Of a DNA stretch of 50,267 nucleotides, positions 2,579 to 40,900 are shown piece by piece. Origin of the DNA: Planctomycetaceae bacterium (lineage in GTDB: Bacteria; Planctomycetota; Planctomycetia; Pirellulales; Thermoguttaceae). A program made the position numbers and the translations under genes. Below the pieces are notes generated by a model that was given only the letters and a program-made list of their open reading frames with translations, made no database searches and was not told the origin of the DNA. Positions within the stretch are counted from its first letter, which is position 1. Each line of letters begins with the position of its first letter. The stretch spans positions 1-50,267 of the forward strand of contig JAISZO010000203.1 of NCBI GenBank assembly GCA_031269105.1, in the 5' to 3' direction.

Positions 2579-5500
2579 ATGCTTTTCAAAGAGAGCCAAA
2601 AACTCATGTTTATTCTGACGACGGCGATCTGCTGTCTGACTTTCATGGCAATAAAATCGTTTGCGCAAGAAGAGAACCCTCAAGAAGATACGGCGTCAAC
2701 TGCCGCGACTGCGGTTGAGGCGCCAGTTGCGGCGGAACAACCGGTTGACGCAACAGAAACGTCTGTCGCGGAACAACAAACAGTAACAGCCGAGTCGCAA
2801 AACGAAACGTCCCAAACGGAAAATTCAAAAGCGGAAACGCCGCAAGACGAACCCAAAGCGGAAGAGCCGAAAGAAGAATCCAAAACGGAAGAAAAAAAAA
2901 CGGAGGAAAAATCGCCGGAAACTCAAGCGTCGAAACCTGTTGCGGTCATTGAAAAAGAGCAAACGGTTTACGTTCCTTACGAAAAGCTCAAAAACGCGTT
3001 TGAATCAGAAGGACGCGGCGTATTTCTTCCTTACGCCGAATTTCGCAAGTTATGGGACGCCGCCAAAGAATTGGAGAAGCCGAAACCCGTCGCCGAGCCG
3101 CAGAAATCTCCGATTGCGGCGCTGATCACCGCGACGGAAAATCAGGCGAAGATCAACGGCGATCTTGTCGAAGTGACGGCGACGGTCAAATTTGACCTTC
3201 TTGAACCGGGTTGGCGGCAATTACCTCTTCAATTGCAGGGAGCGGCGATTATCGAAGCAAAAATCGGAAATGAACCGGCGAAAATCATCGGCAATCACGA
3301 ACAGGGATACCAACTCTTAGTCGAGCGGAAAAAGGACTCGCCCGTTCATTACGAACTCATCCTCAAATATGCAAAAACTTACGAGAAATCGCCGGGACGC
3401 AATTTCGTGTCGTTCCGCGTTCCGCAAGCTCCGTTGAGCCGATGGGAATTTCATGTACCGGACGCGGGCGTTAAAGTCGATTTTGTTCCAATGATCGCCG
3501 CGACGGAAATATCGGCGGAAAAAAGCGAAAACAAAACGAAGGAAACGATTTTTCAGGCATTTGCCGGTTCAGCGCCGAATGTTCAAATTGGCTGGACGCC
3601 GAAATCCGAAGGCGCGACGGGGCTTGCGGTATTGGCAAACGTTCAGTCGCAGCATCTCGTTGCGATTGAAGAAGGCGTGGTGCGAAACCGCGTGACGCTG
3701 AATTATGTTATCAGCCGCGCGCAATTGGATAAACTGACGGTGGAAGTACCGGACGATCAAAAAATTGTCGGCGTGGCGGACGACAATGTTCGGTCGTGGA
3801 AAATTTCGCAGGGAAATAAAACGCAAGTCATTCAGGTTGAACTGTTTGAACCGGCGAAAACTCGTCAGACATTGTTAATCGATATGGAAAAATTCGTGCC
3901 GGTCAGCGACGTCTTTTCTTTGAACGTCCCGCGTATTCATGTCGTCGGCGTTGGCGGACGTCAGGGAATTTTGGCGGTGGACGCTTCGCCGGGACTGGCG
4001 GTGGAACAGAAAAAATCGTCGGGGCTGATTCAAATTGATCCGGCGGAACTCCCGCAAATGCTGAAAATCCGCGACGGCGGATTCGCGTACCGGCTTTCCG
4101 CTCCGGCGTATGATCTCGAATTAAATATCGAGAAAGAACAGCCGCGAATTTTTGCGAAAACGCAAACAAACGTTACGCTTCTTCCTACCGGCAGTTATAA
4201 CGTTGTCATGCAAAACGTTTACCGCATTGAAAAAGCGGGCGTCTTTCAGTTGTTTTACGATATTCCCGACGAATATCAAGTTCAAAGCGTTTCCCGCGTC
4301 AATATTACCAATAATCCATTTGCCGCGACTCGCAGCGTGCAATCCCAACCGCAGGAAGATTCTCAGGCAAACGTTTCTTTCAATAATAACATTGCGATTG
4401 ACGGTTATCAACTTTCCGATCTTCCGACGCAAGAAGGCAAACCGAAAATGAAACGGCTTACCGTCAATCTCGCTCGAAAAGCAATTGGGATTTTCAGCGT
4501 GAATGTGACGTTGTCAAAGAGTGAAACGGTCAAAGAATTGTATGCGGAAACGGAAAAAAATGTCGATCTCAAAATTATCGCGCCGGTGATTACGGCGGAA
4601 GGAATCGAACATAAAGAAGGAATTTTTATTCTCTACGCCCCAAATAATCTGCGGGTTACTCCGACAGGATTTTCGGGAATGCAAAATGTTCCGTTTGATC
4701 AATTATCGGAGAAATGGATTACCGGACCGCTCTCCAACACGCCGGCTCTTTTGGCTTACGTCTTTGCAAACGAACAGCCGGAACTCTCGTTGCAGGCGAT
4801 GAAGCGAACGCCGCAGGTTACGATTAAACAACTTCTTTCGTCCAGAATCGACGACGGCGTTATCCGTTTCACGGATAAGATTTCTTATAACGTTCTTTAT
4901 AGCGGCGTAAAATCGTTGCGAATCGACGTGCCGAAAGAAATTGCCAAAGACCTCCGCAATCAAAGTAAAGAATTTCGCGATACGATTCTTTCGCCGCAGC
5001 CGGAGGACGTGGCGGAAGGTTACGAGGCGTGGAACTTTGCGAAAGATGTGAATTTAATCGGTAACGGTACAATTACGTTGACGTGGGAAAAACAAATTCC
5101 GCAACTGCTTGACGGCGGAAACGTCGATATTACGATTCCGCGTCTTATTCCGCAAGACGTCTTTCGTTCTTGGGGACAAATTCTGCTTTCCAAAGCGGAA
5201 ACCGTCGATATTTCCGCGTCGGATAAGAATGAAGGTTTGCGGCAAATCGACCCACAGCACGACGTTGACGCAAACGACCGTATTCAGGACGCGGCGTATG
5301 CGTTTGAATTTCACAACGACTGGAATTTGTCGCTGTTGGCAACCCGTTATCAGTTGCAGGAAGTCAAACGGGCAAGCGTTGAATACGGCGTTATCCGCAC
5401 GGTTTTGACGCGGGCAAATACGATTTCCGTGCAAGCGTTATATCGTATTCAAAGCGTGAAACAGCGTTTGCCGATTGTTTTACCGCCCGATTCGCAATTT

Positions 5501-6511
5501 GATACGGAACCGCGTATCAACGGCAAACCGGTAACGCTTGAAACCGACGCGGCAAAACAATATTTAATTCCGCTGACCGCAACCACGCCGGACAAACCGT
5601 TTCTGCTGGAACTTCGTTACACGCAAAAGAAAGAAAACGTCCGATCGGAACGCAATCGATGGAAAGAAAAAGAAACGATTTCGATTCCTGTTTTTCCCGA
5701 CGAACCGGCGGTGCAACATCTTTACGTTGCGGTTTATTTGCCGGAAGAATACGCGCTCGCGTCTTATCGCGGGAACGTTTCAAAGAATTTCGGTTCGTCG
5801 TACTTCTTTAACGACCGGAACGAAGCGCATGTTTTCAATACGCCGTCCGTTGAGACGCTCGTCAACGAGGCGCAAAAAGGGACGCCGCAAAATCATTCCT
5901 GGCAGGATTTTCCGGTCGGCGGAACGCCTTATCTTTTCTCGACCGTGCAGCCGGATAAACAAACGCCGGAACTTTTACAAATCGTTTTGCGCAAAACCGC
6001 CGCCGTCAATGCGTTTATCTTTTTGCTGGCGCTGACCGGCGGAATCGCGTTGACTTTTTATCCATGGCGGATACGCGGAATCGCAGTCTTTGGATTAGCG
6101 GCGTTGTATGCGCTGCTCGCTTTTGCCGCTCCGACGCCTATGACTCTCGTTGTCGCCATGTCCGGTTTGCGGTGGGCTATCGGTTTAACGATCCTTGTTT
6201 GGATCGCTTATCTTTTCATAACAAACAGGGAAAAAATAGAATTACCGAAAATCCAGGCAACTTCGCCAACATTTGGAATTCTTGCCGTTTACTGTTTGTT
6301 TGTGATGTTGATCATACCCAAACCGGTTGCCGGACGCTGGGCGCTGGCGCTTCCGCTCGCGGTATGGCTCGCGATATTGGTTGTGAAAAGTTTACGGGCG
6401 TATCGGACACAATCTAATCCAATCCCAAAGAAAGTCGAAGCCGTTGTGGAATCTTCTGAAAACGAGACAAAATCCCAAAATACGGAAACGGAAGGAGGCA
6501 ACCATGCGTAA
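2579..6511 (+). CDS. large exported/membrane protein, 1310 aa, acidic low-complexity N-terminus, C-terminal TM helices
   Basis: Long uninterrupted ORF with RBS aaaggagg. N-terminal hydrophobic segment, Glu/Thr-rich stretch, VYVPYEKLKNAF..GVFLPYAEFRKLW motif, several C-terminal TM segments. Confidence 0.9.
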   Translation: MLFKESQKLMFILTTAICCLTFMAIKSFAQEENPQEDTASTAATAVEAPVAAEQPVDATETSVAEQQTVTAESQNETSQTENSKAETPQDEPKAEEPKEESKTEEKKTEEKSPETQASKPVAVIEKEQTVYVPYEKLKNAFESEGRGVFLPYAEFRKLWDAAKELEKPKPVAEPQKSPIAALITATENQAKINGDLVEVTATVKFDLLEPGWRQLPLQLQGAAIIEAKIGNEPAKIIGNHEQGYQLLVERKKDSPVHYELILKYAKTYEKSPGRNFVSFRVPQAPLSRWEFHVPDAGVKVDFVPMIAATEISAEKSENKTKETIFQAFAGSAPNVQIGWTPKSEGATGLAVLANVQSQHLVAIEEGVVRNRVTLNYVISRAQLDKLTVEVPDDQKIVGVADDNVRSWKISQGNKTQVIQVELFEPAKTRQTLLIDMEKFVPVSDVFSLNVPRIHVVGVGGRQGILAVDASPGLAVEQKKSSGLIQIDPAELPQMLKIRDGGFAYRLSAPAYDLELNIEKEQPRIFAKTQTNVTLLPTGSYNVVMQNVYRIEKAGVFQLFYDIPDEYQVQSVSRVNITNNPFAATRSVQSQPQEDSQANVSFNNNIAIDGYQLSDLPTQEGKPKMKRLTVNLARKAIGIFSVNVTLSKSETVKELYAETEKNVDLKIIAPVITAEGIEHKEGIFILYAPNNLRVTPTGFSGMQNVPFDQLSEKWITGPLSNTPALLAYVFANEQPELSLQAMKRTPQVTIKQLLSSRIDDGVIRFTDKISYNVLYSGVKSLRIDVPKEIAKDLRNQSKEFRDTILSPQPEDVAEGYEAWNFAKDVNLIGNGTITLTWEKQIPQLLDGGNVDITIPRLIPQDVFRSWGQILLSKAETVDISASDKNEGLRQIDPQHDVDANDRIQDAAYAFEFHNDWNLSLLATRYQLQEVKRASVEYGVIRTVLTRANTISVQALYRIQSVKQRLPIVLPPDSQFDTEPRINGKPVTLETDAAKQYLIPLTATTPDKPFLLELRYTQKKENVRSERNRWKEKETISIPVFPDEPAVQHLYVAVYLPEEYALASYRGNVSKNFGSSYFFNDRNEAHVFNTPSVETLVNEAQKGTPQNHSWQDFPVGGTPYLFSTVQPDKQTPELLQIVLRKTAAVNAFIFLLALTGGIALTFYPWRIRGIAVFGLAALYALLAFAAPTPMTLVVAMSGLRWAIGLTILVWIAYLFITNREKIELPKIQATSPTFGILAVYCLFVMLIIPKPVAGRWALALPLAVWLAILVVKSLRAYRTQSNPIPKKVEAVVESSENETKSQNTETEGGNHA

Positions 6512-9500
6512 ATCAAATTTATTTCAGTTGAGTTTGAACTTTCGTTCCTTGCAAAGACGTAAAGCCGCAATGCGTTTTCGCTCAAAAGATGCGAACCGGT
6601 TTTTGCCGCGTTTGATTTTCGCAGGCGTTGCGATGGTTCTGTTTTTATACGGCGGCGGAATTGCCGCGGAAGAAAAAGAAGAAGCGAAAAAACTTCCCAA
6701 AATTTCCGTCCGCGAAATTTTCGTGCCTGATTCCGAAATGGCGACGTTACTCGAAAACTGCAAAGACCGCGTGTTGCTTTCGCGGGAAGAATTTGAAACG
6801 CTGTTGCTGGAATCGCTGAAACAACAATCGGAAACCTCGGACAAACCGGAAGCGGCGCCGTCGAATCCGCTGGTCGTTCTTTCAAACGATTTGGTCGTTA
6901 CGGTGGAAGGAGAGCAGGCGAGAATTAAGGCGAAATTGGAATGGGAATCGTTTTCTGATCAATGGCAAACCGCCTCTTTTCCGTTGGAAAATGTCGCCGT
7001 TCATTCGGCGTTGTTAAACGGCGAACCGGCAAAACTCGGTTTGAAACCGCATTCGGAAAATCATTCGCAAGCGGAATACGTTCTTTTTCTGCGGGGAAAG
7101 GGACGGCATAAACTGGAACTCGAAATGATTACGCCGCTTTATCTTGACGCGGTGCGTCAGGAGTTGCGTTTTCAGATTCTTCATGCGCCGAAAACATCCG
7201 AAACGCTTATTATACCGGGCGACGTGGAATTGAAAGAAGGGGCAATGATTGTCAGTCGCGTTGTCGAAGGAGAAGGAGCGTCGCGCGTGACGCGGTTTGA
7301 ATTACTGCCGAAAAGTCCGTTGCAAAATATTGTTTTGACGCTGAACAGCCATCGGACGCGCATGGTCCGGTCGATACTGGCGCGAAGCGTACAATTCGCC
7401 GAAGTGACCGAACATTACGAAAAATTACACGCGACCGTTTCATTGGACGTGTTGCATCAGCCGGTACAATCGGCGGAATTTATCGTGCCGTCCGGTTTTG
7501 AAATGACGGAGGTAACGTCGCCGCAATTGTTGCGTTGGAGCGTTACGGAACGCGATAAGAAAACGATTCTCGAAGTTCGTTTCCGCGAGCCGGTCAACGG
7601 TCTTGTGCCGATTCATCTGACGGCGGTTCATTTTTTTGAAACCGCGTCCGCCGCCGATGTTCTTTCCGAATGGGCGTTTCCGTCGTTTCAACCGTTGGAC
7701 GTAAACAACGATTCGGCGGTTTTCGGATTGTTGGTCGATACGCAATGGAACGTGCATCAATTGAACGCAAAGCGTTTGATTCCGATAGCGCCGCAAATTC
7801 TTAACGAGACAATTCCCGACAGCGTATTTGACGTAAGCGTTGATGCGCCCGCCGTGCGGACTGCTGCGGCTTGGTACGCGCCGAATACTGAAAATTGGAG
7901 TATCGTTTGCGAATTTCTCAAGCCGAAACCGGCGTTTGACGCCGCGTCGCATCAGGTATTAACGTTGAGCGACAAAGAAGAGACGCTGCGCGGACTAATA
8001 CAAATCGCGCCGCGTTACGAAAAAATATTTGAATTGACGCTTGAATCGCCGGAACATTGGACGATGGTTCGCGTCGCAAATCAACAGGACGTCGCGTTGC
8101 CGTTTGAACAAAAAGGAAAAACCGTGCGGATAAAAATTATCAACGGCATTCCCGCCGGAACGGTTTTTCCCGTGATTTTCGAGGCGAAAGGAAACACGCC
8201 GGGTTGGTTCGGAAGTTGGGACGAGCAGAAATTGGCGTTTCCGCGATTTTGTCTGATCGGCGCGGCAAGCGACAGCGGAACGATTGCGGTTGATGTGGAA
8301 ACCGATATGCGGGTAACGTCGGAAAACGACGTCCGGCTGGCGCCGCTTGACAGCAAAGAACGCACGGAATTTCTTGCGGGATTGCCGACCGATATGGCGT
8401 TTCGTTATTTGAGTCAACCGTATTCGACCGATCTGAAAATTTCTCGTGCGGAACCGCGTTTGACGGCGAGAACGTTTGCGTTTTTCCGGTTTGCGCCGTC
8501 GTTGTTGTCGGCAAGTTACGAACTGCATTACAATATTGAACAGGCGCGGACAAAATCGCTGTCGTTTTTACTTCCGCCCGATACGCCGGAAAACGTCGGA
8601 ATACAAGGATTGAACGGCTTGGTCATTAAGGAATATACGAGTTCGACGGTTACGAAAGACGGCAAAGAATATCGCAAGTGGAATCTGCAACTTGCCGATC
8701 CTGTTGCGGGCGCTCCGGTCATCGGCGTCAATTTTGAACAGGCGCGGCAGGAAAAAAACGATACGAAAAAGAAAAACGACAAAGAAAACGTCATGGAACT
8801 TCCGCTTCTTCTTGCCAACGACGCGGCATGGCAATCGGGATTGGTTTCCGTCGAGGGACACGAAGAATTGAACCTTTCCATAGAAAACAATCTGGAAAAG
8901 AATCAGGAGATTCGTCAGGCGGACGTGGGCGAACTTGCCGCGACGCAATACGTTCCCGGTCGGCGATTGATCGGCGTTTATGAAGGCGTAACTGCGCAAA
9001 ATCCGCTGAAAATACGGATTGAACGTAATCCTGATTTTCAATTACCCGCGTCGCTTGTGCAACTGGCTCGCGGAGAAATTGAAATAGCCGCTGACGGAAA
9101 ACGAATTGCCAAAGCGATTTACGATCTGAAAACGCGCGCGGTGTTTTTGAAAATCGGCTTTTATCGTAACGAAGAAATCTGGTCGGTTTCGCTCGACGGT
9201 CAAACGCTCAAACCGCAAAAAGACGCCAACGGAATTTTGGTGGACATTCCGGCAAAAGACGACGCGGCGGTTCGCGAACTCGAAATCATTTGGGCGCTTT
9301 CCGGCGATTCAAAACCGGCGAGGATGTTCGCGTCGTCGGAAATTCAACTTCCCGACCTTCTGACGTCGCAAAATTTTGAAGATGAGACGAGAGAAAATCC
9401 CAACTTAAAAGTACAAGCGGAACGGGGAACAATCTTTTGGCAAAAGATTCCTGTAACCCGCATGGCGTGGAACGTAACCGCGCCGCCCGGTTACGACGTG

Positions 9501-12500
9501 ATTCGCGTCGGCAATCAAACGCTTTCCAATGAAACGCCGCGACCGATTCTTTTGAGATATTTTTTCGGCATTGTCGGTTATGAATGGCTTGCCGCGTCGC
9601 GGGATATTCATCATTGGGGAATTGGTTGCAGCGCGCCGCCGCAATCCGCGAAAAATAAACATCCTTTACCTGAAACTGCTATGCCTGCTGATTCGTCAGT
9701 AGTATTCCTCACAGCGCCTGCGCCGGTTGGCGAAACGTCTGATTTGAAGTTTCTCAATGCTCCGTCGGAATCGGAAATAGCGAACGACTCTGGTTTTTTA
9801 GATAAAAAATTGGTATCGCCGAAAAAAACAGATTTAAGCATGTTAGACGGCGCTTTCGATTTAAATAATAAAAACGTCGGTAACAAAGATGCAAAAAGTT
9901 CTTTAAAATCGGAAGAATTTATGCCGTATCAAAAACAAACGCTGCAAACAGTGCGTCCGGTTCAAGTGACGTTTCAGAAAAATTTATCCGCGCCGCTTCA
10001 ACGGCATTTGCAATTTCAATGGATTGGCGGCGGCAATGCGTCCATGAACGTTTACATGGTCAACACGCGGTTGACGACATTCGGAATTTATCTGATTTGG
10101 GGAGCGGTTTTCGCCGTTGGACTTTGGTTACTGAAATCATCGGTTCGCGCGAAAACAATTTTTGTTTCCGCCGTGATAATCGCCGGAACGTTGTTCGTAC
10201 TTTTGCCCGGTTTGGAAACGTTTGCAAAACTATTTGACGAAACGGTGAAAGCGGCGTTAGGCGTTATGGCGCTTTATCTTGTTCGCGGCGGATGGCAAAA
10301 ACTAACGCAATCCCAAACGACGACGGAATCGGTAACAGCGCGGCATTCTGCGGAAAAAGCGGCGATGATTTTACTCCTTGCCGCAACCGTTTTGATTTTC
10401 GGAAACCGTCGGACATGGGCGGACGATTCCCAAGAAAAAATATTGACTTTGCCGGACGGCGTGATTGCCGTATTTTACGATGAAGAGACGCTGAAAAAAG
10501 CGGCGCAAAACGGAACGCAGTTTCCCGATCCGAATATTCTGACGCGAAACGATCAAAAACTTTTGGTGCCATACGCAAAATATCAGGAACTTTGGAAACT
10601 TGTTCATCTCGAAGAAAAAACGGTAAACGAAGAAAAACCGCCGGCGAATTACGCGATCACGTCCGGCGAATATTCCGCAACGCTTAACGCTGCGGACGAT
10701 CTTGTCGTTAACGGTAAAGCGGAAATCGAATTACTCGCCGATCAGGTTGTATTATTTCCAATGCCGATTCAACACGGTATTCTGACTTCTCTGAAAGCGG
10801 ACGGCAAAGACGCGGAAATTTCCGTTTCGTTGATTCAACCGCTTCAACAACCGCGAATGCAACAACAGCAAGCGATGCAGCCGCAAATGGCGCAGCAATA
10901 CTCGCCGATGCAAGCGCCGCCGCAACAAAACGGCATGTTTGTCGTGCAAATTCGCGGCAAAGGAAAACATATGCTGGAATGGACGACGCGATTCAAAGTC
11001 GGACGACAAGGCGGCTGGCGTTCCGCAACGGGAATATTGCCAAAATTTCCGGCGGGAAAAATACGGATTACGTTGCCGGAAGAGCGAATGGAATTTCGCT
11101 GTACGGAAGTTTCCGGTCAGTCGAAATGGATAGCCGGTCGCGCCGGCGAAGTGATTGACACGTCGCTCAATACCGGAGGAAAATTTCATTGGTCGTGGCG
11201 GTCGAAAGTGACCGAAGCGGAAATTGACCGAAGTTTGACGGCAAATTCCGAGTTGCAATTCAATATTCAGGAAGATTCGCTGATCCTGAATTGGGATTTG
11301 TCGCTGGCGTTTCGACGCGGAAAACAAGAATCGTTCCGGCTTCGGATTCCGAATGATTATTTGGTTGCGGAGGTAACGGGCGAAAACGTGCGCGGCTGGG
11401 AAAACGTCGAAACGGATTTCAAAAAAGATTCCGCAAAAGAGTCGCAAATTGACGTGGAACTTCTTCATCCGACGGAGGGGAATGATCGTTATCGCCTCGT
11501 GTTGATGAAAAAAGTCGATTTTTCTGAAAACAAACCGCATCAGATCGTAGCGCCGAATATCGGCGTTGTCGCCGCCGCCATGCATCACGGACGCATCACG
11601 ATTCAGCATAGTCCGCGATTTGACGTTAAAATCGGCGAAACGTCCAACGCGAGCATGACCGATATGCTGGACCAAAGCCGCGCTCCGACGGTTTCCGATA
11701 GCGAGTCGTCCTCAAAAGTTATGCAATCGCCGCTTGGTCTGACGGCGTTCCGCGCCTACAGTTTTATGACGGAAAATTATCTTTTATCGATGACGGCGGG
11801 GAATAAACGTAGGGGCGTTCATTACAGCAATAACAATATTGTCAAACTGACTCCTCACGAAATCAAACTGGAAAGCAATTTTCAATTCCATTATCCGGTC
11901 AATCATGACGTCTTCAAAGAAGTTCTGTTGACGTCGAAAGGTCTGAAATTAGACGCCGTGCGATCCGATTCGTCGATAGAATGGTCAACGAAACCGCTTG
12001 AATCGGGAGAAACAGAGTTGACCGTTTTATGGACGGCGATTCCTGATAATCGTCGCATTGTTTTCAACGTTTTGGGAACCGTATTGCGCAATCAGAAAAA
12101 CACGGCGGATTTGCCTGTCGCGTTACGCAAAGAAAGTTCTCCAGATCATTATACTACAAACGCGTCGTTTGCCGTTTTGACCGATCCGGCATTTGACGTT
12201 CAGTTGAGCGACGTCGTGGACTTGAGCGCGATTGAAACCAACGCGAACTGGAATTGGATTACTCCTGAACAGCGTCCGCTTTGCCGAAAACAACTCGTAA
12301 AACAAGGGAAAAAACCATCCGCCAAATTGACGCTCGTTCCGCGAGAACCGAAAATCATTAGCGAAAGTATCACGAACGTGCGAATGAATAACCGAAGCGT
12401 CGAAGAGAGCATTCTTCTGGATTACAACATTCAAAACGCCGGAATTCATTCCGTACAGTTTGAATTGCCGAAAAACATGGCGGATGTGCGGATTGACGCG

Positions 12501-15122
12501 CCGTTACTGCAACGGAAGGAAATCGCGGAGACCGATCATGATACGATTCTCGTAACGCTGCATTTGCAAGATGAAATCATGAACGAGTTTCGCGTTTTCA
12601 TTCGCAACGACCGCGAACTGATTTCAGGAAAAACGTACTTGGCGGCGATTCCGAAAATGCTGACCGGCGCCGTGCGGAATCAATATATCGTTTTGGAAAA
12701 CGCCGGAAGCCGCGACGAATTGCAGATCGATACATCAGACGTCGTCAATGTGCGAAAGATCAGCCGTCAACAAAACGAATGGCGGCGGTTGCAGGAAATT
12801 CTTGGTTCCGGCGCGACGGAAGCGTATCTTGTCACGTCAAATATGCAGGAAAACGCGGCGCAAAACAATCCGCCGGAAAATCAACAAAGTGCGAACGCCT
12901 CCAAAGAGATTGCGCCGAAACTTCCCTTTTCGATGACGCGGCGCGAAACGGTTAAGATGTCGGGGGCGCAAATCGGGCTGGCGGAAACGCGGGTTGTACT
13001 GGGAGAGAACGGCGATTATCTTGCGGAACAGATTTACCGAATTGACAACAAAACGGAACAATTTCTCGACTTGAAATTGCCGTCCGGCGCAAAAATCTGG
13101 ACGGTGCGGATTCTCACGTCGCAGGAATGGAACGCCCGCGAATCGGGACAATCCGGCGATTTCGGGCAGCCGGTCAAACCGACGTTAATGACTTCCGGCG
13201 AATATTGGTCGATGCGGCAAAAAAACATGCCGGAAAATGAAAAGAAATTGCCGGTTGAAAACTCGTTGACTCCTCAAACGGAGGCAGCGCGTATTCCGAT
13301 TGTCAAAACCGAAGTCGGCGACCTTGATTATATTGTACGGATTGTTTACGCCGGAACAATCGGAAAAATTCGGCGGACAAGTTCGCTCGACGTTCCGTTT
13401 CTCGAATCGCTGAACATTCCGGTTGCCGCGTCTTACGCGAAATTGCATCTGCCGGAGAATTACAAATTCACGTTCGGCGGCACGATGCGGCAATCCGATC
13501 AGAACCTTGTCAAACAAACGGTTTCGGATTATAAAAAACGCGTTGAGACGAAACTGCAACAGACGCTGCAAACCGGCAATCCTTACGAACAAACGCGAGC
13601 GAAAACAAACCTGTTGCAATTAGGATTCGCTTTGCCGAAAGGTATTGGAAAGCCGGTTGATGAAACGCAAGCTCATGTTCCTCAATTGGAAAAGCGTTCT
13701 CGCGAAACCGTTACGAGACGCCCCGGTTACGAAATGCAAATCGTGAATTCCGGTTCTCAATCAGGCGAAACGTTGGCGGTGGAATTTTCTAATTCTCTAC
13801 AATTACAACAGCGTTTCGAATCGCAAAGTAATGTTCGCGGGAAAAACGTCGTGGCGCAATCGTCGGACAATTGGAAGTTAGAACAAAAACCGCAGGTTTC
13901 TTCTTCGCTAACGTCTTCTTCCAAGACGTCCAATCAATTTGACGGAAAATGGCTTGAAAACAATGGTTTTACTCAGAACGGGCGGGATTCGGCGAAGAAG
14001 AAATCGCCGATTAACGAAAACGATGAAATCCATGAAAAGCCGCAAGAGTCGGCAACATATAGAAGAGACGATAGTCTCCAAGAGAATAAGCCGCTTTTTG
14101 GCGGCGCAGATAATTCGAGACAGACTCCGCAAAACGGCGTCGAGGAAAATGGCAAATCACCTGTGCAGGGTTTTCGCGACTCTTCTCGCTTCAGCAATGA
14201 ACGGCAACAACAATCGGCGGTTCAATTCCCGTTGAATCAGAAATTAAACGACAAAGAACTTGCATCCAAGTTATCGGGAAAGAATCCGCAATTGGCAGAA
14301 GGAATTTTTCAACAACAAGTTCCGCAATTATTGCAAGCGCCGTTACCGCAATCTCAAATAAATGATGCTGTCGCCGATCAGAGCTCGTCGCAAATCGGAC
14401 GAGAATTGGGATTACAGAATAACCTTATAAGCAATTCTGAAACAAGCGATTTCAATTCTTTTGCCCAATCAGACGACGAAAATATCAAACGTTATGAGAA
14501 ACGTTTGGCGGCGAATAATAGAGCGTCCACAGCGCCGCAAAGCGGAGGAAGACGCTCTTCTTTAGCGGGAACGGATGATATTGGCGCATCGTCGTCAATT
14601 GGTAGCGGAACAGTCTCCGGCTCGATTATTTCGAACAATCCCAATAACAGTAGGAAAGGCAACGTCAATCTTTCGGTTGAGGTACATGCCGACAGCGGGA
14701 TGACGGGAAGAATAGAAGTCAAGGAGTATGGCGGCGGTTATGCCGGCGGCAGTATGGCAAACGCCGCTCCGAATCCGAATGCAAGCGGCGGCCCGATAGG
14801 TAGCCCGGTCGTTGTTCCGTCTGCTGTCGCGTGCGAACCGGAAATCTCTTCCGAAGAAGAACCTTCGTATTCAGGGAAAACGTCTGTAATGTCCGCGAAA
14901 GCCGCTAGTCTTGATATTGAAATTCCGCAAACCGGCGCCGTTTATTTCTTCACGGCGCCGAAGGCGGAACATCGGTTGAGTATTCGCGGTATTTCTCACG
15001 CTTCGTTGCAGCGTGCCGGCGACTTAACATGCGTTGTCATTATCTTTGCCGTGATTGGCTTGACGACTCTTGCTGTCAAAAAAAGCGGCGGGAAAAAGCG
15101 AAAATCTCCTCAAAACCGGTAG
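6504..15122 (+). CDS. giant exported/membrane protein (about 2870 aa) with two tandem modules related to the upstream gene product
   Basis: Uninterrupted ORF. ATG at 6504 follows ggaggc and overlaps the upstream stop codon (coupled). Module 1 ends with TM segments near 10080-10290. An internal signal-peptide-like segment (MILLLAATVLIFGNRRTWADD) precedes module 2. The C-terminus is Q/N/S-rich with a final TM. Confidence 0.9.
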   Translation: MRKSNLFQLSLNFRSLQRRKAAMRFRSKDANRFLPRLIFAGVAMVLFLYGGGIAAEEKEEAKKLPKISVREIFVPDSEMATLLENCKDRVLLSREEFETLLLESLKQQSETSDKPEAAPSNPLVVLSNDLVVTVEGEQARIKAKLEWESFSDQWQTASFPLENVAVHSALLNGEPAKLGLKPHSENHSQAEYVLFLRGKGRHKLELEMITPLYLDAVRQELRFQILHAPKTSETLIIPGDVELKEGAMIVSRVVEGEGASRVTRFELLPKSPLQNIVLTLNSHRTRMVRSILARSVQFAEVTEHYEKLHATVSLDVLHQPVQSAEFIVPSGFEMTEVTSPQLLRWSVTERDKKTILEVRFREPVNGLVPIHLTAVHFFETASAADVLSEWAFPSFQPLDVNNDSAVFGLLVDTQWNVHQLNAKRLIPIAPQILNETIPDSVFDVSVDAPAVRTAAAWYAPNTENWSIVCEFLKPKPAFDAASHQVLTLSDKEETLRGLIQIAPRYEKIFELTLESPEHWTMVRVANQQDVALPFEQKGKTVRIKIINGIPAGTVFPVIFEAKGNTPGWFGSWDEQKLAFPRFCLIGAASDSGTIAVDVETDMRVTSENDVRLAPLDSKERTEFLAGLPTDMAFRYLSQPYSTDLKISRAEPRLTARTFAFFRFAPSLLSASYELHYNIEQARTKSLSFLLPPDTPENVGIQGLNGLVIKEYTSSTVTKDGKEYRKWNLQLADPVAGAPVIGVNFEQARQEKNDTKKKNDKENVMELPLLLANDAAWQSGLVSVEGHEELNLSIENNLEKNQEIRQADVGELAATQYVPGRRLIGVYEGVTAQNPLKIRIERNPDFQLPASLVQLARGEIEIAADGKRIAKAIYDLKTRAVFLKIGFYRNEEIWSVSLDGQTLKPQKDANGILVDIPAKDDAAVRELEIIWALSGDSKPARMFASSEIQLPDLLTSQNFEDETRENPNLKVQAERGTIFWQKIPVTRMAWNVTAPPGYDVIRVGNQTLSNETPRPILLRYFFGIVGYEWLAASRDIHHWGIGCSAPPQSAKNKHPLPETAMPADSSVVFLTAPAPVGETSDLKFLNAPSESEIANDSGFLDKKLVSPKKTDLSMLDGAFDLNNKNVGNKDAKSSLKSEEFMPYQKQTLQTVRPVQVTFQKNLSAPLQRHLQFQWIGGGNASMNVYMVNTRLTTFGIYLIWGAVFAVGLWLLKSSVRAKTIFVSAVIIAGTLFVLLPGLETFAKLFDETVKAALGVMALYLVRGGWQKLTQSQTTTESVTARHSAEKAAMILLLAATVLIFGNRRTWADDSQEKILTLPDGVIAVFYDEETLKKAAQNGTQFPDPNILTRNDQKLLVPYAKYQELWKLVHLEEKTVNEEKPPANYAITSGEYSATLNAADDLVVNGKAEIELLADQVVLFPMPIQHGILTSLKADGKDAEISVSLIQPLQQPRMQQQQAMQPQMAQQYSPMQAPPQQNGMFVVQIRGKGKHMLEWTTRFKVGRQGGWRSATGILPKFPAGKIRITLPEERMEFRCTEVSGQSKWIAGRAGEVIDTSLNTGGKFHWSWRSKVTEAEIDRSLTANSELQFNIQEDSLILNWDLSLAFRRGKQESFRLRIPNDYLVAEVTGENVRGWENVETDFKKDSAKESQIDVELLHPTEGNDRYRLVLMKKVDFSENKPHQIVAPNIGVVAAAMHHGRITIQHSPRFDVKIGETSNASMTDMLDQSRAPTVSDSESSSKVMQSPLGLTAFRAYSFMTENYLLSMTAGNKRRGVHYSNNNIVKLTPHEIKLESNFQFHYPVNHDVFKEVLLTSKGLKLDAVRSDSSIEWSTKPLESGETELTVLWTAIPDNRRIVFNVLGTVLRNQKNTADLPVALRKESSPDHYTTNASFAVLTDPAFDVQLSDVVDLSAIETNANWNWITPEQRPLCRKQLVKQGKKPSAKLTLVPREPKIISESITNVRMNNRSVEESILLDYNIQNAGIHSVQFELPKNMADVRIDAPLLQRKEIAETDHDTILVTLHLQDEIMNEFRVFIRNDRELISGKTYLAAIPKMLTGAVRNQYIVLENAGSRDELQIDTSDVVNVRKISRQQNEWRRLQEILGSGATEAYLVTSNMQENAAQNNPPENQQSANASKEIAPKLPFSMTRRETVKMSGAQIGLAETRVVLGENGDYLAEQIYRIDNKTEQFLDLKLPSGAKIWTVRILTSQEWNARESGQSGDFGQPVKPTLMTSGEYWSMRQKNMPENEKKLPVENSLTPQTEAARIPIVKTEVGDLDYIVRIVYAGTIGKIRRTSSLDVPFLESLNIPVAASYAKLHLPENYKFTFGGTMRQSDQNLVKQTVSDYKKRVETKLQQTLQTGNPYEQTRAKTNLLQLGFALPKGIGKPVDETQAHVPQLEKRSRETVTRRPGYEMQIVNSGSQSGETLAVEFSNSLQLQQRFESQSNVRGKNVVAQSSDNWKLEQKPQVSSSLTSSSKTSNQFDGKWLENNGFTQNGRDSAKKKSPINENDEIHEKPQESATYRRDDSLQENKPLFGGADNSRQTPQNGVEENGKSPVQGFRDSSRFSNERQQQSAVQFPLNQKLNDKELASKLSGKNPQLAEGIFQQQVPQLLQAPLPQSQINDAVADQSSSQIGRELGLQNNLISNSETSDFNSFAQSDDENIKRYEKRLAANNRASTAPQSGGRRSSLAGTDDIGASSSIGSGTVSGSIISNNPNNSRKGNVNLSVEVHADSGMTGRIEVKEYGGGYAGGSMANAAPNPNASGGPIGSPVVVPSAVACEPEISSEEEPSYSGKTSVMSAKAASLDIEIPQTGAVYFFTAPKAEHRLSIRGISHASLQRAGDLTCVVIIFAVIGLTTLAVKKSGGKKRKSPQNR

Positions 15123-21948: not shown

Positions 21949-23961
21949 CTAAAACGTTTGCTGAAAACCGAACGTGGCAGTTTGGTAACGCGAACGATTT
22001 TCGCCGAAATCAACGTTGTAATCGATATATATCATCCGGCTGCGGTCGTCGGAAAGATTGATTTGTAATCCGAGATTCGCCGAGACGAACCCTTTGCCCA
22101 AATCAACGCCGCGTACTTCAAACGCCGGACCGCCCCCAAGAAACGACGCCCGCGAATAATAAGTTTGATCGCCGCCGAGTAAATATTTGTAAAACGCTCC
22201 GCCGTACAAACTGCGCGCCGAATCGCCGTATTCCGCGTTCAATCCGACGCGTCCGATATGCCGCGCGATCTCCGTTTTGCCGAAAGAAAGTCCAATCGCG
22301 GAATTGCCGGTTTCGTTCGCTTCTTTCTGAGAAAGGTACAAGTAATCGTAACCGACCGCCGGTTTGAGAATCAAAAACGTTCCGGTATAAATCGGACGAA
22401 CAATTTCCGCGCTGAACGTTCCCGTGTTTCCCTTGAAATTCGAGCGGAACGTTTGCGGCGTATCAAAAGAAACGTTTCGCGTCATGTCGTAATATTGATA
22501 ACCGTAACCGCCCCAAACTTTCAATTCTAGCGAGTCCCAAACGCGCGACGCCAGATACGCTCCCGCGAGAAAATCGTCTAATTCTGCCTTGCCGCGCGGA
22601 TGGCGAAGTTCAGGACGACCGTAGCCAAGCATGACGCCAAACGCGGTTTTGCCGCCGATAAGCGTTTGATCAAAACCGCCGACAAATCCGTAACCGTCAA
22701 GCGAATATCCCGCCGCATTTCCGTCGCTATGAACTTTGTTGTTCGCATAATACGGACGCAACCAAACCGCGCGACGGCTCGGCGCGGCGGCTAATCGATA
22801 CTGCGGACCGAAAAAGATATGTCCGTTTTGCGAATCCCAACCGACATGATCAAACGCCATTCTGCCGGGAGATGCAAGCGGCAACGCCATTGTTTCCGCG
22901 CGGATTTCGCCGGAAAGATCGTTGTAAAGCGTTCGTAACTCCGCGTCGCTCATGTTCCATGTCCGCTGCATGAACGAATTTAATGTAGGCGGTATCGCCG
23001 AATGATGAATCGCGTCCAACGTTTGCCCAACGCTTCGTTCATTCCAAGTTTGCGTAAAATTGGCGTAAGGATTCTCGCTGGGCGCGAATGTCAGCGAAAT
23101 CGATTTCTCGTCGATCGCTTTTTCCAACGTAAGCGCTCCGTACCGCGTTTGCGAAAGCCGCGCGTTGGCAAAAGCGCCGTCGATTGTTCCGTCGCTTTTA
23201 AGAATTTCTACCGTGAGCGGCGCAGCGCCGTAATTTCCATATTCCGGCGTAATAAGCAACATAGCCTCGTTGAGCGCGATATTATTTTCCGCCGTAATTT
23301 TTCCCGCATCTCCAAACGCATTGAGCGTAATACCAAGCGTCGCCGTCTTATCGAAAGATAAAGTATTAATGCCGTTTATTCGCAAATCGCCATTTGAACC
23401 GACAACGTTTAATGTCGTATTTTTGCCGATAGAAACGCCTTGATCGGCGTTCAACGTTCCGGCGCTATTCACGATAGAATTGTTATCGAAAAAGATTTTA
23501 CCGCTTCCCGCGTCCAAAAGCGTATCTTTCGATTGCATTAAATAAGCGTTATCGAAAACCGCCGCGCCGTTGAAAAGAATTTGACCGTAATTCGTCATCT
23601 CAATTTTTCCGCCGCCGGTAACGCCGAGAACGCCGGTTCCGTCAGACGTAAGAGACAACGCGGAATCAGCGTTGACTAACAATGTCGAACCGTTCCCCGT
23701 AACGAGCAACGTTCCTCGTCCGTCGGAATCTTGACCAAGAACAACGCCGTCCGCTTGAATCTTTTCTCCGTCGGCGATCAACTTAATTTCTTCCTCCGTA
23801 TTGCCGATAACAAGTTCGCCGTTCTCGGAACCCAAATTGATATTGATCTGCGCGTAAATAGCGAAATCCGTCAAAACCGTAGATAAAAATAAAACGTAAA
23901 AAATATTCCGAAATTGCTTCAATCTGACGACAGAAAAACTCAAATTTTGTGGGAAAGTCAT
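21949..23961 (-). CDS. autotransporter (type Va) with beta-barrel domain, 670 aa
   Basis: Signal peptide, beta-helical passenger (GNGSTLLVNADSALSLTSDGTGVLGVTGGG), C-terminal barrel with aromatic beta strands ending in ...RYQTATFGFQQTF. Confidence 0.88.
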   Translation of the reverse strand: MTFPQNLSFSVVRLKQFRNIFYVLFLSTVLTDFAIYAQININLGSENGELVIGNTEEEIKLIADGEKIQADGVVLGQDSDGRGTLLVTGNGSTLLVNADSALSLTSDGTGVLGVTGGGKIEMTNYGQILFNGAAVFDNAYLMQSKDTLLDAGSGKIFFDNNSIVNSAGTLNADQGVSIGKNTTLNVVGSNGDLRINGINTLSFDKTATLGITLNAFGDAGKITAENNIALNEAMLLITPEYGNYGAAPLTVEILKSDGTIDGAFANARLSQTRYGALTLEKAIDEKSISLTFAPSENPYANFTQTWNERSVGQTLDAIHHSAIPPTLNSFMQRTWNMSDAELRTLYNDLSGEIRAETMALPLASPGRMAFDHVGWDSQNGHIFFGPQYRLAAAPSRRAVWLRPYYANNKVHSDGNAAGYSLDGYGFVGGFDQTLIGGKTAFGVMLGYGRPELRHPRGKAELDDFLAGAYLASRVWDSLELKVWGGYGYQYYDMTRNVSFDTPQTFRSNFKGNTGTFSAEIVRPIYTGTFLILKPAVGYDYLYLSQKEANETGNSAIGLSFGKTEIARHIGRVGLNAEYGDSARSLYGGAFYKYLLGGDQTYYSRASFLGGGPAFEVRGVDLGKGFVSANLGLQINLSDDRSRMIYIDYNVDFGENRSRYQTATFGFQQTF

Positions 23962-37525: not shown

Positions 37526-37933
37526 GCGGAAATAAAATGAAACGCAATACCCGTTTGAACACCCTACCTGTAAAGACGAAATGATGCATAACCTACGGCA
37601 AAACGTTTAAATTACTTATATTGCCATTAATCACGGAAATTTTAATCGGCGGTTTATTCACGAACAGTTATACGCTCACCAATCGTTGTAATAATCAAAT
37701 TCTAATACTTCGGCGAAAAAAAATAATAGAATTTTAAAATAATGTTGCCTCTGATTGCATAAAAACCGTTTCGATGGACGATATAAAAATCAGGAATTTT
37801 TACCGAAAGGCAAGCGCAAAAATTACGAAATTGTAATAACGTCCTTCTATTCCGGTAAAATTGCGGGAGAATAAGCGTTATTCCCCGTAAGTAAGAGCGA
37901 CAAGATTTTCACAAAGACTCAGGAGGAGCTAGC

Positions 37934-40900
37934 ATGGAAAATCACCCAAGTTTTTTACCCCCCCCCCCCGCACTAGTCTGTGTATTTTAACAGGCAAGCG
38001 AGATTTCAACTCCTTTGGGAAAAGGGTTGGATTGTTTCTGGCGTCAATCACGACGGCAACCTGTCTCTTTCAGGTTCCCGCAACTCATGCCGAAGATTGG
38101 GATTACGCCGCATCGACAACGATCAGTTCCGACGCCGAATATTCCAATATCAAAAACTTCAACGGCGGAGATACGCTCAATATTACCGTGAAAAACGGTC
38201 AGGGAGCAAATCACGTGAATGATGAGCATGGAGGTTGGTTTGACAGGGACGTTACATTCGGAACAACGAATTCGTCTCCCAATATTTTCGACGCCAACAA
38301 TAACCGGGTTAATCCTGACAACATCAAGCACGTCAAGATTGATTTACAAGCTCAAGATCATGAGACGAGTTATACCTATTTGGATGAGGGCACTTATTTA
38401 ATTTTCGGCGAAAAAACTTCCGGCAACACAAAAGCCGGTTCGGCTTCGTGGACGGTCAAAGAGGGCGATACTTTTCACGTTATAAATAGTATCGTCGGCA
38501 ATCCGGGAGAATCCATATTGCAATTCGGCGGCAATAGCGACTATAACGAGGCCGGCGAGTATTACGGTAACGGCGGAGACGGTACGTTCACGGTGAACGG
38601 CGGAAACGTCAAGTTCACAGAAGGCACAGAGTTGGCGCTTGGCGGTTGGGGTAAAACCGGCGGAAACGGTACGTTCACGATGACCGGAGGAGATGTCGAT
38701 TTTTTGGATAGTTATTTGGGTCTCGGTGGAACCGGTAACTATGATTATGATCTCAATAAATCCAACGATGGTGTAGGCAGATTTGATTTGAGTGGCGGAA
38801 CGTTCAAAATATCTGGAGGCATATACGCCTCTAGCAATAGCAATAGCGTTCTCAACCTGACCGGCGGGAACTTAATACTCAAAAGTGAGTATAATGGTGA
38901 GTGTTGGTATGGCGGTGATGTTGGCGTGTATGAGGGCACAATCAATATTGGCGCCAACGCCAAAGTAACATTGGAAGGAGCGAGACATTACGTTGACGCA
39001 AACCAAATCAATATCGCAAAAGGAAGTACGTTTGCGTTTGACGTTTCGGGTCTTACTTCAAACGATACGGACGCCGCCGTAAATTTGAGAGCCTCTCAGT
39101 CCGGCGAGCTTGGAAAATTTAACGTCGAGATACTGAATGCCAAAGCCGAAGATTTTATAAGCGGCAGTGCAAACACCTATAACTTAATCAATGCTCCCGG
39201 CGTCTATTTCACTTTAGGTAGTTTTGACGTCATCGTAAACGACAGAGAAGGTTTTAGGTATGACGTCGACGCTTCAATTATAGGACAGGACTCGGTAAAA
39301 GTTGCAATTAAATACGACTCCGGCAATATTGACAACAATAATAGAGTTGCCGAGTGGAATTCGAACGAGGCGAATGCTTCGTGGAGCGGAAACGCCTGGG
39401 ATGTGACTGATAGTGACTCGCACCATTTCAAAAACGACGACCAGGTTAAATTTAAAAGCGGCGCCGCCAATCAAAACAAAAACATTACCGTAAGTCAAAA
39501 CGGCGTTACGGTTGCAAGACTATCAACATCAGATCCGGCGATGTTGGTTGACAGTTCCGCCAATTACACGTTTGAAGGCGGTAGTATTACCAGTACATTA
39601 GGCGACTTTAAAAAAGCCGGCTCCGGAACATTAACCATTAAAAACGAGCTTAATTTTACCGGTAAGGAAGTCGATTTGACGGCGGGCAATACGGTTGTTG
39701 ACGGAAAGATCACCGCAGATAACGTGATAGTTGACAGCGGCGCAACTCTTTCCGGCGGTAAGGGCGAGATTGCGGTGATTGTCGGCAATTTGACGTTCAA
39801 CGACGGATCGTTCCATCGCCCCGGTCATTCGCCCGGAACTTTTACCGTCGATGGAGATATCAACTACAACGCCGGATCAAAGGTCTATCTTGATTTCGGA
39901 AAAACTGCCGATTTCGTTCAGACAATCAATTCCGGCAATATCAAATTCGCTTCCGATGCCGTCGGCAAAGTCAAAGTTATTGTCGGCAACAGCGGTGATC
40001 TTACCGTGAATGATAGCGAGGAAAAGCACACGGTCTTTCAAGCGGGCGGAACAATTCAACTCGGCGCTCAAGACATTAATGACAACACTTGGGTTGCTGC
40101 TGCTGATAACACGATTACCATTGACGACTCCGCCAGCGGCGGTAGCGGCGACCATAAGATCGTATTTTCCGGCGTCTCTGGAATTGAACTTCAACAAGCG
40201 AAAGTGATTAACTCAAAACAACTTGAGTTGACTGCAATGGGAACGATTGTTCCGTTACCTTCCGATATTACGCCGAATCAATTGGCGTTTTTCAATTCTC
40301 TTGACGAGGTGAGAGATTTGGGAACGTTTGCGAATTATCTGAAAGCGTCTCTTTGGGAAAGCGGTACGGTCGATAAGGCGGCTCTTGAAGCGGCGTTGCC
40401 GACCGTCAATTCCGCGTTATTTGTCGCTTCGCAGCGGAATGTCGTTTCCGCCAACCGTTCGATTTATAACCGTTTGCATTTCCTTCAAGACGCCCAACCG
40501 CGTCTCGGCGGATTCGCGAATGGAGAAACGATTTTTCGCGGTCAAAACAGCGCTTGCGACCCGTGCGGTTCGGTTTCCGATCCTCGCAATTCGAGGAACA
40601 GTTTAACCGCCAACGCATGGTTTGAAGGTTTCGGCGACTTCCTGCGACAATCCAATACGGGAACGTTGCAAGGTTATCGATCCAATGTCGGCGGATTCAA
40701 TCTCGGTGTTGATCAACGAATCAATCGGTATACGATTTTAGGAATCGGTTTCGGCGGCGCTTATGCGGACATGAAAACAAACGATCATTCCCAATGGGGC
40801 GACGTGGAACAGTATATTTTCTCCCTTTACGGTTCGCGTTCGTGGGATAACTGGACATTTTCTTTTGCGGGCGGTTACGCCTACAGCGATTACGATTTGA

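Follow-up and report, generated by a model that had tools for sequence, protein, structure and literature searches.

Within the window analysed here, the whole 50,267 nt stretch of contig JAISZO010000203.1 from a Planctomycetaceae bacterium (assembly GCA_031269105.1), a run of 12 C separates a strong start site from a long autotransporter reading frame, and as assembled the two are out of frame with each other. The question raised by this locus is whether the run is an accident or a switch. Comparison with orthologues and with similar tracts elsewhere in the genome suggests that the C12 tract is very probably the on/off switch of a phase-variable surface autotransporter, operated by slipped-strand mispairing.

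A C12 tract between a start site and an autotransporter

The first-pass annotation had described AGGAGG, 7 nt, ATG 37934, 12 C and a TAA at 37988, and had held that one C more or two fewer would put this ATG in the frame of an autotransporter, the locus being OFF as assembled. We found every base as claimed. The ATG is followed by the codons GAA AAT CAC CCA AGT TTT TTA, then by exactly 12 C and directly by GCACTAG, and the assembled frame reads MENHPSFLPPPPALVCVF before it is closed. Past the tract, the frame beginning TSLCILTGKRDFNSFGKRVGLFLASITTATCLFQVPATHAEDWDYAAS is open for 1150 codons and reaches into the autotransporter. Frame arithmetic confirmed that ATG 37934 is in this frame (ON) when the tract length, n, is 1 mod 3 (13 or 10), a class outside which n = 12 falls (OFF). 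By eye, a putative signal peptide with a positive n-region (GKR), a hydrophobic core and an AxA-type site could be read in the n = 1 mod 3 frame only, and TTG 38032 is the sole ATG, GTG or TTG between the tract and the signal-peptide core in the autotransporter frame. A first-order Markov model predicts 1.7e-4 C runs of at least 12 per window, and the second-longest C or G run of the 50-kb window is 6. The call of the 1130-amino-acid (aa) open reading frame (ORF) as an autotransporter also held, with the PF03797 profile matched complete and the protein ending ...LNYAF, the last residue, F, being the terminal aromatic of classical (type Va) autotransporters. Comparison of the protein with PDB sequences gave no match.

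A search of 60 genomes turned up a single full-length relative, of the same genus and at 67% identity (genome G001; JAIRYX010000236.1, Planctomycetaceae bacterium Gsp477_bin66). It was recovered again by a scan of named genomes, which also yielded a third orthologue at 58% identity (L169; JAIRWK010000291.1, Gsp477_bin102). The layout is AGGAGGAGCAAA, ATG, 21 nt, C12 and the same stop in G001, and AAGGAGCTAAATT, ATG, 22 nt and C17 in L169. The orthologues carry C12 and C17 after a Shine-Dalgarno (SD) sequence and ATG, and SD, ATG, C tract and intact distal frame are kept in 3/3 species. In L169 an extra base ahead of the tract is offset by one base fewer behind it, which preserves the n = 1 mod 3 class, the in-frame class in all three orthologues. 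Protein-like conservation starts right after the tract in the three species (ILT...NS.GKR). A codon test from tract to TTG against G001 was weak, with 4 synonymous and 10 non-synonymous differences in the autotransporter frame and 3/11 and 2/12 in the other frames. The autotransporters of other relatives that were examined had no tract at the 5' end, and C runs behind an SD-ATG were confined to this autotransporter in the window's genome (G000) and in G001, apart from one other place in the congener G002.

G tracts before DUF1559 prepilin genes

G000, a 4.2 Mb metagenome bin of 439 contigs, contains 69 C/G runs of at least 9, and about 55 of these are G runs 5' of DUF1559 prepilin genes. One near-identical cassette accounts for 45 of the runs and reads, on the G strand, AGAAGGAGTTTCGACT-ATG-AAAAAGTTGAACAAAGCGTTTGATTTTCTTGAACTTCGGCAGAATGTATC-Gn-TACGTAA, with AAGGAG as the SD; ten further tracts precede DUF1559 prepilins with different leaders. 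At n = 13 the cassette encodes MKKLNKAFDFLELRQNVSGGGGYVIWL..., a long leader running into the DUF1559 prepilin, and at n = 12 a TAA stands immediately past the tract. Over the 53 nt that run from ATG to tract, identity among the 42 complete cassettes is 94% and indels are absent, yet 59% of cassette pairs are unequal in n (10 in one copy, 11 in six, 12 in 26, 13 in six, 14 in two and 15 in one). The paralogous G tracts span 9-15, with a mode of 12. In all copies tested, those with an SD-ATG and a prepilin motif, the prepilin frame was open back to the tract (34/34), and 7/34 were ON as assembled. At the sister locus L104 we found a match to PF07596 (E = 7.8e-48) and, ahead of it, one to the type IV prepilin N-methylation motif (N_methyl PF07963, E = 2.4e-6); PF07596 matches in G000 total 148, fragments among them. 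Only 9 A/T runs of at least 9 occurred in the 363 kb of AT-rich DNA fetched around the C/G runs, so that in these stretches, chosen around C/G runs, A/T runs were the rarer, opposite to the expectation from base composition.

Two other prepilin starts were considered and rejected. An ATG 7 nt 5' of the tract was replaced by the SD-bearing ATG 53 nt upstream, and poly-G acting as the SD of a nearby start (ATGGCTAATAAGCC, 8 nt past the G tract) was discarded, that ATG being out of the prepilin frame in most copies. The roughly 45 prepilin genes (L065-L126) have differing proteins behind their near-identical 5' cassette, and contigs often terminate there. C runs of 19-40 stand at the contig ends of L065, L086 and L106, beside a recurring sequence (in L086 and L093, AGGAAATATGCAGCGACATAC or a similar one); they probably arose as assembly artefacts where the real tracts are longer, and the three were excluded from the members as likely sequencing or assembly artefacts.

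This layout, with different leader sequences, was present in three genomes of the same genus (G001, G002 and G003; in G003, for example, MQKFTLCPKCQN-G12) and in genus g30, where the four loci inspected all run into DUF1559-type prepilins. The modal n was 12 in G000, G001, G002 and G003, and this length is ON in most G002 copies and OFF in most copies of the other three. Compared with a one-third expectation, ON copies were in deficit in G000, G001 and G003 (chance 0.08, 0.02 and 0.001, respectively) and in excess in G002 (chance 0.02), probabilities that assume independent paralogues, which paralogues are not. In the family (119 genomes), the highest SD-ATG-Gn count was 74 in a single genome, several genera had counts in the tens, and a reversed control pattern gave 0-5 per genome. 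Outside the family, counts in 296 genomes of the class were at background (0-9), with controls alike in kind and GC-rich matches. Prepilin leaders were similar within species and dissimilar between congeners, a sequence pattern that suggests gene conversion or leader shuffling. In leaders of G002, G003 and genus g30/g21, TGTTAA[AGT][AT]TG recurs right before the G tract; it gives V-K-M/L in the ON frame and a stop (TAA) in another.

A G tract after an SD-ATG was also found in a Poly_export gene (Wza-like, PF02563; L107:3160-4525 on the + strand, and L233 on the - strand). Its orthologues carry G11, OFF, in G000 and G13, ON, in G001, suggesting that capsule or exopolysaccharide export may also be phase-variable.

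The features of the locus are collected in Table 1. The hairpin-forming sequence of the 5' leader also occurs in the aligned G001 orthologue and could be an operator, a terminator or an RNA control element. Elsewhere in the window there is a second autotransporter (PF03797, 670 aa; 21949-23961, - strand), which has no C/G tract at its start, and there are two adjoining giant ORFs of 1310 and 2892 aa (2579-6511 and 6444-15122, + strand) without a Pfam match.

Table 1. Features of the autotransporter locus, in window coordinates
Feature	Position	Strand	Basis or comparison
5'-leader hairpin (UUGCGGGAGAAUAAGCGUUAUUCCCCGUAA)	37861..37890	+	13-bp stem, region z = -2.4; ~30 nt upstream of SD
SD AGGAGG	37921..37926	+	Sequence; AGGAGG in G001, AAGGAG in L169
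ATG and leader codons 5' of tract (MENHPSFL)	37934..37957	+	Orthologue counterparts MKKHPGFP, MKQKITFS
C12 tract, candidate contingency tract	37958..37969	+	C12 in G001, C17 in L169
Remaining putative extended signal peptide, autotransporter frame (TSLCILTGKRDFNSF-GKRVGLFLASITTATCLFQVPATHA)	37972..38091	+	By eye; orthologue conservation
TAA closing n = 12 frame after 18 codons	37988..37990	+	TAA at equivalent place in G001
Autotransporter ORF from first downstream start (TTG), 1130 aa	38032..41424	+	Mechanical ORF call
Autotransporter beta-barrel domain PF03797	40615..41361	+	Profile match, E = 3.7e-46

Proposed slipped-strand switching and its rivals

Slipped-strand mispairing at replication would alter the C count. 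With 13 or 10 C, a ribosome starting at ATG 37934 would pass through the extended signal peptide into the autotransporter, and with 12 or 11 C translation would halt within a few codons or run out of frame. Judging from known processing, the tract-encoded residues of the leader would be removed at export, by signal peptidase for the autotransporter and by prepilin peptidase for the DUF1559 proteins. With the tract inside the part removed by signal peptidase, the mature protein would be identical at every in-frame length. The locus would be one of a set of surface genes spread over the genome, together with the DUF1559 prepilins with their G runs and the one polysaccharide-export gene, and the benefit may be that the surface changes in the face of phages, protists or host immunity. 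The anatomy, its conservation in three species, the unequal lengths among orthologues and among paralogues and the intact distal frames are observed; that slippage produces the length changes, that cells switch back and forth and that the signal peptide is cleaved is inferred. A mode of 12 irrespective of ON or OFF state is what would be expected of a mutational equilibrium, and a length preference arising from mutation bias would fit, as for the G9/G10 of Campylobacter. The earlier proposal of a phase-variable surface protein is thus supported by the orthologue tracts and the sister tracts, and what had been seen as a single locus appears as one member of a large set. For several genera of the family we consider it probable that there is a very large phase-variable surface system, in which tens of DUF1559 prepilins per genome share a G-tract leader near 12, together with capsule export and the autotransporter, each cell showing a random pseudopilin subset.

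Several points speak against switching. The three orthologues are all OFF as assembled (3/3), and no ON allele of the autotransporter gene was seen. All tract lengths are the assembly consensus of metagenome bins, not per-read counts, and the switching model is drawn from assembled sequences rather than from expression or export. The paralogous cassettes are moreover of recent common ancestry, and their lengths are not fully independent.

Other explanations were weighed against the same evidence. Programmed -1 ribosomal frameshifting or transcriptional slippage could bring n = 12 back into frame, so that expression would be constant and low from unchanged DNA. In favour of this, C12 and G12 are slippery homopolymers, no length is commoner than 12 and the stop that follows at once in frame 0 is conserved in G001; however, a recoding site would not tolerate the spread of lengths found (12, 12 and 17 in the orthologues, 9-15 in the paralogues), the mode of 12 is already in frame in G002, and transcriptional slippage is usual on A/T, not G/C, runs (PMC3711429), leaving this explanation improbable. 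If translation began downstream of the tract instead, at TTG 38032, the C run would lie in the 5' leader and protein would be made at all lengths, its level perhaps modulated. AAAAGGG lies some 7 nt ahead of such a start, which the first-pass annotation had itself raised, and G001 has a TTG at the corresponding codon, but its position is not conserved in L169 and its product would lose the positive GKR n-region of the signal peptide, whereas the strong SD-ATG is conserved and the codons 5' of the TTG show conservation at the protein level in all three species. Downstream start codons of the prepilins, likewise, are scattered, and an SD-like sequence accompanied them in only 6/36 copies. We hold initiation past the tract to be weakly founded and a shade less probable than recoding.

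The gene may also be merely off, either through an assembly consensus error or as a decaying pseudogene frozen out of frame. It is true that homopolymers are error-prone and that the three assemblies agree in being OFF, but the 3.4 kb ORF is intact in three species at 58-67% identity, indicating that it was translated recently, and consensus error would not place most of 69 long C/G runs behind an SD-ATG in surface genes, nor make C/G runs of at least 9 commoner than A/T runs of at least 9 in the sampled AT-rich stretches. This explanation is the least probable of all, and very unlikely. An isolated chance run or assembly error was rejected in view of the genome-wide tract set and the orthologues. 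Reduced mismatch repair as a common cause was not supported, MutS being present in G000, G001 and G003.

Relation to known switches and meaning for the family

Most known cases of slipped-strand phase variation come from host-adapted Proteobacteria, Campylobacterota and mollicutes. The opa genes of Neisseria are a multigene surface family with a repeat tract in the signal-peptide coding part and one mature protein at in-frame lengths. The tracts described here would share this placement in the signal-peptide part of a multigene surface family; they differ in being G homopolymers in dozens of prepilin leaders, as against pentamer CTCTT repeats in about a dozen outer-membrane adhesin genes. For autotransporters, poly-C phase variation is established in Neisseria meningitidis NalP and AusI (MspA) (PMC5472700). 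These are classical autotransporters switched in frame by slipped-strand mispairing (PMC5472700), as proposed for the present gene, which belongs to another phylum, has another passenger and carries its putative switch at most 8 codons from the start, in a putative extended signal peptide. Within the PVC superphylum, homopolymer-tract phase variation of the Pmp autotransporters (Pmp10) of Chlamydia pneumoniae has been proposed, according to work cited in PMC4514472; the likeness is an autotransporter homopolymer tract, in a different autotransporter family and phylum and with no prepilin set. Campylobacter jejuni has the phase-variable autotransporter CapA and many G/C tracts, with G9-G10 preferred through mutation bias (PMC8355987). 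It thus combines, as here, an autotransporter with many G/C tracts of a preferred length, but here the preferred length is 12 and most of the genes encode DUF1559 prepilins behind a common leader cassette. The portions of the open-access literature that were searched, outside which most subscription papers lie, held nothing on phase variation in Planctomycetota and nothing relevant on DUF1559. The shared-leader prepilin set is what would be new; the autotransporter alone would add a member to an established mechanism.

Gene callers would miss or truncate such genes when the assembled length is out of frame. Planctomycetota metagenome-assembled genomes have been reported from the termite gut (PMC9137090), the bin names of the relatives resemble termite-gut bins, and the host environment is probably an insect gut. 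If the switching model is true, an uncultured planctomycete family holds one of the larger switch sets, directed at surface structures. DUF1559, an expanded planctomycete family, would then form a surface structure that varies, and not the parts of a housekeeping secretion apparatus, and this would be the first testable hint on its role, namely in structures that it pays to conceal from phages, grazers or a host.
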